Translations under genes and position numbers: made by a program
The notes under the pieces: model-generated
The model's input: the letters and a program-made list of their open reading frames with translations, nothing else
Databases searched by the model: none
What the model was told of the DNA's origin: nothing
Assembly: GCA_005884665.1 (NCBI GenBank)
Contig: VBAT01000010.1
Coordinates: 538,662 to 602,661 of the forward strand
Length of the DNA stretch: 64,000 bases
Reading direction: 5' to 3'
Origin: Bacteroidota bacterium
GTDB lineage: Bacteria; Bacteroidota; Bacteroidia; Chitinophagales; Chitinophagaceae
In this document: piece after piece, positions 1,692-58,838 of the stretch
Numbering within the stretch: position 1 is the stretch's first letter
Layout of the letters: each line of letters starts with the position of its first letter

Positions 1692-1799
1692 GATGCCAGA
1701 TACTGGATGCTAGATACTGGATGCTAGATACTGGATGCCAGATACTGGATGCATCCTACATAACAACAGCATCCTGTATCTAGCATCTGGCATCCATCC
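1692..1799. repeat. Heptad snapback array (GATRCTR n / YAGYATC n)
   Basis: gatgcca gatactg gatgcta gatactg gatgcta gatactg gatgcca gatactg gatgcat cctacat aacaaca gcatcct gtatcta gcatctg gcatcca: one 7-nt register throughout. Confidence 0.9.
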
Positions 1800-7521: not shown

Positions 7522-7628
7522 GATACTGGATGCTAGTTGCCAGATACTGGAAGATTGGCGCCACGAACAGGATTCTGGTCGATATAGGTCAGCATCCAGT
7601 AGCCAGCATCCAGAATCCCGCATCCAGT
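7522..7628. repeat. Heptad snapback array
   Basis: gatactg gatgcta gttgcca gatactg gaagatt ... gcatcca gtagcca gcatcca gaatccc gcatcca; all in one 7-nt register. Confidence 0.85.
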
Positions 7629-22018: not shown

Positions 22019-22119
22019 TTTTTTAGTTTTAATGTTACACCGGCCAGGAATCAATTGGATTGACCCTGTATTCGGCGATAAAAAATGAGAGGGAAATGCT
22101 GTTGTAGAAAGGATGAACT

Positions 22120-22234
22120 ACTCCTTCCCTGCGCAGGCATTACCCTGATCAGGTTTTCGGGTATGATCTCAGATTGATGCGCTGAGCAAGACGAAGCGCA
22201 CTTCGCCAGGCTCAGGGCTCAAACACCCCGGGAA
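22120..22234 (-). ncRNA. TPP riboswitch (THI element)
   Basis: Minus strand GGGGTGTTTGAGCCCTGAGCC...CTGAGATCATACCCGAAAACCTGATCAGGGTAATGCCTGCGCAGGGAAGG matches core CUGAGA / ACCUGAUC-GGGUAAUGC. Confidence 0.93.
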
Positions 22235-22373
22235 CACTGAAGCTCCGACCTTGTCGGAGTTATTTTAAGAACTTTGTTCCGCCTGGACGGCGGGAACGAG
22301 CAAATTTAGGGTAAAATAATTTTTTAAGGAGTGTAACTTTCCTACGCTGCTTTTCGTACCACAACAAAACCAT

Positions 22374-24789: not shown

Positions 24790-24861
24790 CGCGAAGTAGA
24801 GCAGCGGTAGCTCGACGGGCTCATAACCCGTAGGTCGGGAGTTCGATCCTCCCCTTCGCAA
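24790..24861 (+). tRNA. tRNA-fMet (CAT), initiator
   Basis: 72-nt cloverleaf CGCGAAG..CTCATAA..CTTCGCA-A; C1 x A72 mismatch and three G-C pairs next to the anticodon loop. Confidence 0.93.
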
Positions 24862-25345
24862 CAAGAAAAACTCGTCAAACCGACGAGTTTTTTATTTTAT
24901 CAGCGGGCTCATATCCGCCGGTTGGCGGATGGGAGTTCCCTGCCTGCGTGACGCAGTCAGGCAGGGATCCTCCCCTTCGCAACAAGAAAAACTCGTCAAA
25001 CCGACGAGTTTTTTATTTTGACAGCGGGTTCATATCCGCCGGTTGGCGGATGGGAGTTCCCAGCCTGCGTGACGCAGTCAGGCAGGGATCCTCCCCTTCG
25101 CAACAAGAAAAACTCGTCAAACCGACGAGTTTTTTATTTTATCAACGGGTTCATATCCGTCGGTTGGCGGACGGGAGTTCCCCGCCTGCGTGACGCAGTC
25201 AGGCAGGGATCCTCCCCTTCGCAACAAGAAAAACTCGTCAAACCGACGAGTTTTTTATTTTATCAACGGGTTCATATCCGTCGGTTGGCGGACGGGAGTT
25301 CCCTGCCTGCGTGATGCAGTCAGGCAGGGATCCTCCCGTTCGCAA
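24862..25345 (+). repeat. Four 121-bp tandem repeats derived from the tRNA-fMet 3' part plus its terminator
   Basis: gcaacaag at 24858, 24979, 25100 and 25221 and gcaataag at 25342 (spacing exactly 121); each unit has aaaaactcgtcaaaccgacgagtttttt, cgggYtcatatccg..., and ggatcctccccttcgca. Confidence 0.95.
24865..24900 (+). terminator. Intrinsic terminator after tRNA, copied in the tandem units
   Basis: aaaaACTCGTCaaacCGACGAGTttttTatttt. Confidence 0.85.
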
Positions 25346-25538
25346 TAAGAAAACTTGTCAACCAGGCAGGTTTTTTTCATTTTGATAGAGGGAAGTAACA
25401 CCTTGAAAATAAAACCTATGACGGCCTGATCAGAGCCCCAGTCTTATTTTCAGCCGGTTCTATAGCGTCCAGTCCGCGTCATCAGCTATTTAGCTTCGGA
25501 CAATCTCGCTCACCTGTCTTACCTTTGCGACCCGCAAA

Positions 25539-35203: not shown

Positions 35204-35325
35204 GAATGTAGAATTAAGAATTATGAATTATGAATGTTATCCAGTGGGATGTTGCCCTTGCGTCTGTAGAATTTATCTTTGGCAGCAACAATTCATAATT
35301 CATCACTCATCATTCATAATTTTAT
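35204..35325. repeat. GAATTAT heptad snapback array
   Basis: gaatgta gaattaa gaattat gaattat gaatgtt ... attcata attcatc actcatc attcata attttat. Confidence 0.85.
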
Positions 35326-37259: not shown

Positions 37260-37413
37260 GATGCTGGATGCTGGCGGCTGATACTGGATGGCGGATGCTA
37301 GATTGGGTTAGATCGTTTTTGAATGTCAGCATCCAGCATCTAGCATCCGATACCTGTTGACTCAGGACTCTCAACTCTGTACCCGGAACTATCGTCTGAC
37401 GGCTATCGACTAT
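37260..37413. repeat. Long heptad array (GATGCTG / CAGCATC passing into GACTATC-type heptads)
   Basis: gatgctg gatgctg ... gatactg gatggcg gatgcta ... gcatcca gcatcta gcatccg atacctg ttgactc aggactc tcaactc tgtaccc ggaacta tcgtctg acggcta tcgacta. Confidence 0.85.
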
Positions 37414-39494: not shown

Positions 39495-39577
39495 AATCCG
39501 ATTTTAGAAACCTGAAACCCGAAAAATGCGCACTGTCCTAATTTCGAATTTCTCATATTCGCACTTCGGATTTAACC
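39495..39577. repeat. AAYCYGA-type heptad snapback array
   Basis: aatccga ttttaga aacctga aacccga aaaatgc gcactgt cctaatt tcgaatt tctcata ttcgcac ttcggat ttaacc. Confidence 0.7.
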
Positions 39578-40622: not shown

Positions 40623-40699
40623 GATGCTGGATGCTAGATGCTGGAAGCATGGTCGATAGCAGCTGCATCCAGTACCCAGCAACCAATATCCAGCATCCA
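40623..40699. repeat. Heptad snapback array
   Basis: gatgctg gatgcta gatgctg gaagcat ggtcgat agcagct gcatcca gtaccca gcaacca atatcca gcatcca, single register. Confidence 0.88.
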
Positions 40700-40803
40700 A
40701 CCGCTTCGCCCCACTGCACCGGTGATCCAATATCTTCCCTTAGCCAAAACATAGCATCCAAGGATGATAATTTTCTGTAATTTTTCAGTCACAAAACCGA
40801 TTT

Positions 40804-42070: not shown

Positions 42071-42291
42071 GTTGAATGTTGAATTTTAAATTTTGAATTG
42101 GAAGTAGTTCATTTAGCATTTAAAATCTGAAATTATTCTGATTTTTATATCGGGATATAGTAGTTCTTTCAGCAGTTAAACTTCGGAATCAGTTTGTTTA
42201 TAGTTCAGGTGCTGGGATGTTAACTATTGGATGTTTTGACTGTTTCTTTGCAGAGGTGCCGCGCATTCAACATTCATCATTTAACATTCAA
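42071..42291. repeat. GTTGAAT heptad inverted arrays filling the intergenic spacer
   Basis: Left gttgaat gttgaat tttaaat tttgaat; right cattcaa cattcat catttaa cattcaa. Confidence 0.8.
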
Positions 42292-50823: not shown

Positions 50824-50830
50824 TGCAAGG

Positions 50831-50930
50831 GATGCTGGATGATCGATGCTAGATGCAACGGTGTCGTTATCGACTAGTCAATACCTAGCATCCAGTATCC
50901 GGTATCCAGCATCCCCGCATCCGATGCCAG
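50831..50930. repeat. Heptad snapback array
   Basis: gatgctg gatgatc gatgcta gatgcaa cggtgtc gttatcg actagtc aatacct agcatcc agtatcc ggtatcc agcatcc. Confidence 0.88.
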
Positions 50931-58698: not shown

Positions 58699-58802
58699 AG
58701 GCCAGCCTCATCCCCGAACCCCTCTCCGAAAGAGAGAGGCGATGGCGACACCCTTCACAGAAAATCGTGGGTTGCGAACTACTGTCGTCAGATCCCGCTT
58801 TA

Positions 58803-58838
58803 TCATCCATCATCCAGCATCTCGTATCTAGCATCCAG
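58803..58838. repeat. Short heptad array (CATCCAG n)
   Basis: catccat catccag catctcg tatctag catccag. Confidence 0.75.

Follow-up and report, generated by a model that had tools for sequence, protein, structure and literature searches.

The stretch of DNA analysed here (the window, G000:C32:538662-602661, 64,000 nucleotides of a 5.7-Mb draft genome in 124 contigs, from an uncultured Bacteroidota bacterium of the Chitinophagaceae) contains, directly behind a stop codon, a spacer built of consecutive heptanucleotides that begin as one degenerate word and end as its reverse complement. The question raised by this locus is whether such an array has a job in the cell or is the trace of the way in which it was made.

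The array at 1692 and its counterparts in the window

The array begins on the first base 3' of the TAA stop codon of an open reading frame at 1230-1691, in a spacer between convergent genes. Its purine-rich 5' arm (1692-1753, plus strand) consists of nine GATRCTR-type heptads, GATGCCA GATACTG GATGCTA GATACTG GATGCTA GATACTG GATGCCA GATACTG GATGCAT, and is followed by a loop or junction of about 14 nt (1754-1767) and by a pyrimidine-rich 3' arm of four reverse-complement heptads (1768-1794, minus strand), so the first-pass annotation was right to read heptamers turning into their own reverse complement. The array has a TRF score of 108, its best inverted arms are 85% complementary across 27 nt, and the 142-nt spacer has a predicted fold of -52 kcal/mol. 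Two other genomes, G002 and G004, hold different heptad words in the same spacer.

Recurrence of this architecture within the window, also claimed in the first pass, was borne out at 7522, 35204, 37260, 40623, 42072 and 50831. It failed at 39495, where no lag-7 array exceeds the threshold, and at 58803, where the supposed snapback is a single C-rich arm (58802-58838, minus strand) with no facing partner. GATRCTR hairpins occupy 7522-7628 and 40623-40700, both in divergent spacers, as well as 37260-37348 and 50829-50915, while the hairpin at 35204-35321 is built on another word, GAATTAT / ATAATTC, and the feature at 42072-42291 has TTGAATG-type arms (42072-42099 and 42264-42291) at both ends of a convergent spacer. 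An Rfam search matched only a tRNA and a TPP riboswitch, the latter on the minus strand at 22108-22240 (RF00059). The tRNA gene (24790-24861) runs into a tandem repeat of 4.3 copies (24845-25361), whose 121-nt unit starts within the tRNA 3' end and includes a terminator-like hairpin.

Period, vocabulary and polarity

Lag statistics were computed on 127 kb of predicted intergenic DNA against dinucleotide shuffles, the comparison that the first-pass annotation had proposed, and the excess that it anticipated is present. Identity at lag 7 is 0.2795 compared with 0.2632 in shuffled sequence (z 13.6), with further excesses at lag 14 (z 8.8) and lag 21 (z 8.3). High-scoring arrays number 43 at lag 7 and 19 at lag 8, with 0-2 at every other lag except the multiples 14 and 21, and about none in shuffled controls; the heptamers are thus accompanied by a second class, of octamer (lag-8) arrays. 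The pattern GATRCTRGATRCTRGATRC, three successive GATRCTR words, has 87 matches genome-wide and the reversed control pattern none. Sister species carry arrays with the same word in their independent assemblies, and the arrays are therefore not an assembly artefact. The statistics of array position given below cover about 0.77-1.18 Mb of the genome. The octamer arrays, such as TTAACCAA/TTGGTTAA at C32:663140-663255 and others on C6, form similar G-first hairpins and are almost confined to codirectional spacers (13/14, convergent none).

The step is 7 or 8 nt whatever the word, and dozens of unrelated words occur within one genome, among them the heptamers GATRCTR, CATTCAA, AATTATG, AATTCGA, GACTATC and GTGAGTC as well as octamers of the kind of TTAACCAA. 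In the source genome GATRCTR is dominant, and it is strong in G003; the arrays found in G006 each use a word of their own. Heptad arrays are spread Bacteroidota-wide. The GATRCTR word itself occurs in 18 of the 104 genera of the family, reaching hundreds of copies in some (G313, G238), with none in most others, and where it recurs in distant genera it keeps the same conserved and variable positions. Its matches are nearly one-stranded in some other genera (19:1 in G065, 1:8 in G195, and also in G270), in contrast with the symmetric hairpins of the source genome. A dispersed element, GTCATTGCGAG-N-CGAAGCAA, sits within heptad arrays of any word, with copies in the window at about 13918, 13968 and 48557 (plus strand) and 33440 (minus strand) and more elsewhere in the genome. 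Both of its flanks carry the same word in the same orientation, a 5-mer being directly common to the two in 15 of 19 copies (shuffled 9.2 ± 2.1, p 0.008); a literature search on this nested element returned unrelated papers only.

Within long arrays, neighbouring units are the most similar, as in slippage of simple sequence repeats: adjacent units have an identity of 0.767, which drops to 0.60 for units six apart, compared with a flat value of about 0.67 when the units are shuffled. As similarity declines with unit distance, the units were copied serially, and the decay makes it hard to see a constant motif under selection as the sole cause. Words may also morph stepwise and in frame along one array, as in ATTGCCT ATTGACC ATTCACT ACTCACC.

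The two arms of GATRC hairpins have a word family in common, and the order of its variants is not mirrored. Exact snapback copying was rejected as a general rule, the arms of GATRC hairpins matching no better at variable positions than shuffled units do (45.0 compared with 50.5 ± 3.1; mean p 0.43 across 15 hairpins). Some hairpins of sister species have arms that are 97-100% identical, so that fold-back copying is possible. The loops show no conservation, and their length varies between 1 and 146 nt. The 7-nt phase is kept through the loop at 1692 (offset 0), as the first pass, for which this was the chief argument, had noted, but its extension to the arrays in general did not hold: the offsets modulo 7 between left GATRC and right GYATC in 33 hairpins were 0 in 11, 5 in seven, 6 in five, 1 in five, 4 in two, 2 in two and 3 in one. 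The excess at offset 0 is mild (11 compared with 4.7 expected, p 0.005), and two thirds of the hairpins are out of phase.

The orientation of the arms is much more regular. The purine-rich arm comes first, on the 5' side, in 61 of 71 lag-7 hairpins, with 29:2 in the GATRC family and 32:8 among other words, whereas in the same genome neither the long-loop (17:12) nor the short-loop (49:34) hairpins that lack periodicity are significantly biased. Since one word family is common to all GATRC hairpins, their polarity is not fully independent evidence. Counted as G versus C, the G-first arrangement prevails by 36:6 in codirectional, 24:6 in convergent and 13:5 in divergent spacers, the last not significant alone; the direction is the same in all three spacer types, and the polarity is therefore independent of transcription. 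In other genera, a small held-out set gave 7:1 purine-first, the lone exception being a long direct array with no real hairpin.

Insertion into spacers and possible functions

Judged from comparison of orthologous sequences, the arrays are young insertions, recently gained. Among 117 orthologous spacer pairs an array is present only here in 23, only in the relative in seven, and in both in two. The spacer at C32:295241 measures 129 nt here and 4 nt in G003, and that of the 50829-50915 hairpin (window 50824) 141 nt here and 5 nt in G006, where the flanking genes are separated by those 5 nt alone. For the 7522 hairpin (spacer at window 7463) the lengths are 213 nt here and 105-109 nt in four sister species, with the flank on the promoter side conserved, and for the 37260 hairpin 249 nt here and 161 nt in G001, which is array-free. 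In the other direction, one G003 array is missing from the orthologous spacer of the source genome. Empty sites indicate clean gain, with no consistent target-site duplication seen by eye at the few sites available, and words have been replaced completely between sister species within the same spacer. Gene order in G001 differs from that of the source genome around C32:480000.

Within spacers the arrays favour gene ends. Those facing a stop codon start within 9 nt of it in 15 of 32 cases, compared with 3 of 36 for those facing a start codon (p 7e-4), and heptad periodicity reaches back into the last 14 nt or so of the gene (0.37, compared with 0.24 further upstream). At window 26406 the conserved C-terminal codons GGATACTAG continue directly into GATGCC heptads. 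Such periodicity within the gene is consistent with the gene end seeding the array. The placement behind stop codons is also what would be expected if the arrays were functional RNA structures, acting as bidirectional terminators or 3'-end stabilisers, as are the stable predicted folds, such as that at 1692, and the enrichment per spacer in convergent (6/56) relative to codirectional (14/302) positions. In divergent spacers, however, arrays are no less frequent (8/70) than in convergent ones, and an operon would be split where an array enters the 4-5 nt between two genes. A U-tract (at least six T in 10 nt) follows the stem in 3 of 18 cases, compared with 37 of 96 short-loop hairpins, and behind the array at C32:485560 lies a distinct hairpin that resembles a classical terminator, AGGGCTC..GAGCCTTTTTT. 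On the missing U-tract, the reading as canonical intrinsic terminators was rejected. Stems in codirectional spacers contain 69 G-U and 55 A-C pairs, with no significant preference for G-U; as the two are about equally frequent, there is no visible sign that the transcript keeps its pairing, and selection on RNA pairing was rejected. We consider a role as RNA structure unlikely.

If the arrays were instead ordinary heptamer microsatellites, the inverted pairing would be secondary and without meaning. Heptamers are the commonest intergenic tandem repeats of prokaryotes, and the survey that established this found no clear clue to their function (PMC6344855). The snapback form, evident at 1692 and at other sites, is likewise not general, since only about half of the lag-7 arrays of this genome (43/79) possess a stem scoring at least 11. 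The same score is reached at only 11 of 120 random positions, though, and the strong purine-first bias is absent from other hairpins, which makes this explanation distinctly improbable.

REP and REPIN elements have a fixed sequence and conserved ends, and their cognate RAYT transposase gene is flanked by copies of them. The arrays resemble them in being dispersed intergenic palindromes, and a family of mobile palindromes that depends on a trans-acting transposase, whether REP/RAYT-like or a MITE, would fit this dispersal as well as the insertion polymorphism and the patchy presence of one word among genera. The fixed sequence and the RAYT linkage of REPs were not found here. Array length, word order and loop all vary, leaving no copyable unit; each locus has its own arms, loop and ends, with no conserved termini seen, and many different words coexist within one genome. 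The flanks of RAYT-like Y1 transposase loci in G000, G003 and G005 are array-free but for one low-complexity TTTTTTA stretch. The RAYT/REP assignment was rejected, as there is neither a cognate Y1 gene flanked by array copies nor a fixed palindrome with GTAG/CGTC ends, and we regard a mobile family of any of these kinds as very unlikely. The G005 Y1 genes (at L191 and L189) are flanked by ordinary palindromes, such as GTGGTTAGTCACAGACTAACCAT, which are probably their cognate REPs.

A DNA- or RNA-binding protein that reads a heptad-spaced core, kept by selection, would suit the neighbours of GATGCTG, in which G (.90), A (.80), T (.85) and C (.84) are retained while position 4 is kept at only.59 and position 7 at 66%, the changes being mostly G to A, but it sits badly with a unit identity that falls with distance rather than remaining flat, with complete word turnover between sister species in the same spacer and with dozens of unrelated words per genome, and we give it very little weight. 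Nothing found requires the heptad-reading protein or RNA suggested in the first pass; growth by slippage or template switching, suggested alongside it, fits the similarity of neighbouring units, the gain by insertion and the near-identical arms of some hairpins.

How the arrays may be made

The arrays are inserted, serially copied and purine-first, with no phase lock and neither terminator nor RNA-pairing signatures. We suggest, with a confidence somewhat short of even, that they are products of DNA synthesis, that is, repair filler laid down by error-prone slippage in 7-nt steps at facing 3' ends, and not dedicated regulatory elements. The process would start where a spacer that tolerates insertion is interrupted, in many cases immediately behind a stop codon; there, error-prone slippage would lengthen a 3' end by 7 nt at a time, less often 8, each unit templated by the preceding one and the slipping strand being preferentially purine-rich. 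The facing 3' ends across the gap would both gain the same purine-rich word; alternatively, one end might fold back and copy itself. Joining of the extended ends would then produce a purine-first inverted pair whose loop is an unrelated junction. Facing-end extension followed by joining would account for purine-first arms on both strands and for arms that use one word, each in its own order; the phase would be free, the loops would be unrelated, no fixed unit would be inserted, and similarity would decay along the array.

Conjectural in this scheme are the break or gap, the polymerase that extends the ends and the step that joins them. Ku-dependent joining was considered as required machinery and rejected, since G003 has many arrays but lacks Ku, and the presence of Ku does not track that of arrays. 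Simple local slippage falls short as an explanation because distant genera have one and the same degenerate word. Templating from existing arrays or a common sequence preference would account for the dominance of GATRCTR in some genomes; either of them, or horizontal spread, may lie behind its recurrence across genera.

End healing of the telomere type leaves head-to-head telomere repeats at fusions. By analogy, Bacteroidota might heal breaks in spacers with a telomere-like enzyme that adds purine-rich words of 7 or 8 nt to both 3' ends ahead of joining, the template perhaps being existing arrays or an RNA and the head-to-head arrays being the scars. The likeness would lie in the geometry, since extension of facing 3' ends yields inverted, G-first arrays whose arms use one word but are otherwise independent. 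Unlike telomere healing, many words occur per genome and neither a telomerase-like enzyme nor a template was found, and we think this version very unlikely; if true, it would also explain the prokaryote-wide excess of heptamers.

STRR sequences of heterocystous cyanobacteria are tandem heptamers in intergenic DNA and, to our knowledge, have not been described as purine-first inverted pairs. The first-pass annotation took STRR as the closest analogue. The closest known case is instead that of the heptamer arrays built on GGGAATC / GGGGA(C/T)T in Xanthomonas and Nostoc, of unknown function (Rehm et al., 2015, PMC4692102), and specifically the convergent GGGAATC pairs of Xanthomonas, with their partly degenerate word and rapid turnover. 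That study gives 70-75 convergent (inverted) pairs per Xanthomonas genome, with positions 1-4 and 6 conserved. Both sets are dispersed intergenic heptads with conserved and variable positions, lie near the upstream open reading frame and form inverted pairs (here with the G-rich strand first), and in both the long arrays are not common to sister species (PMC4692102). Xanthomonas and Nostoc each use one G-quadruplex-capable word per organism, whereas here there are many words per genome, an octamer class and a Bacteroidota host; the dominant GATRCTR has no GGG, and so lacks the G-tracts of a quadruplex.

The TAACTGA repeats that occur in Beggiatoaceae as well as in some Bacteroidetes and Cyanobacteria (MacGregor, 2015, PMC4679880) are similarly intergenic heptamers, patchy across phyla, in spacers longer than those of relatives. 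They differ in comprising one word, nearly always direct and mostly just upstream of start codons, with one inverted case only in the main genome (PMC4679880). The idea of slippage set by a polymerase footprint is discussed in both studies (PMC4679880; PMC4692102).

Heptamer arrays without an assigned function have thus already been published, and the Bacteroidota case is of the same kind with a varied vocabulary. Its Bacteroidota-wide spread and its polarity sharpen the question of where heptamers come from, and the fixed step of 7 or 8 nt, the serial copying, the frequent gain and the transcription-blind polarity constrain their cause and make the choice between selection and mutation testable. 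The geometry of the arrays points to a mode of making rather than to a job.
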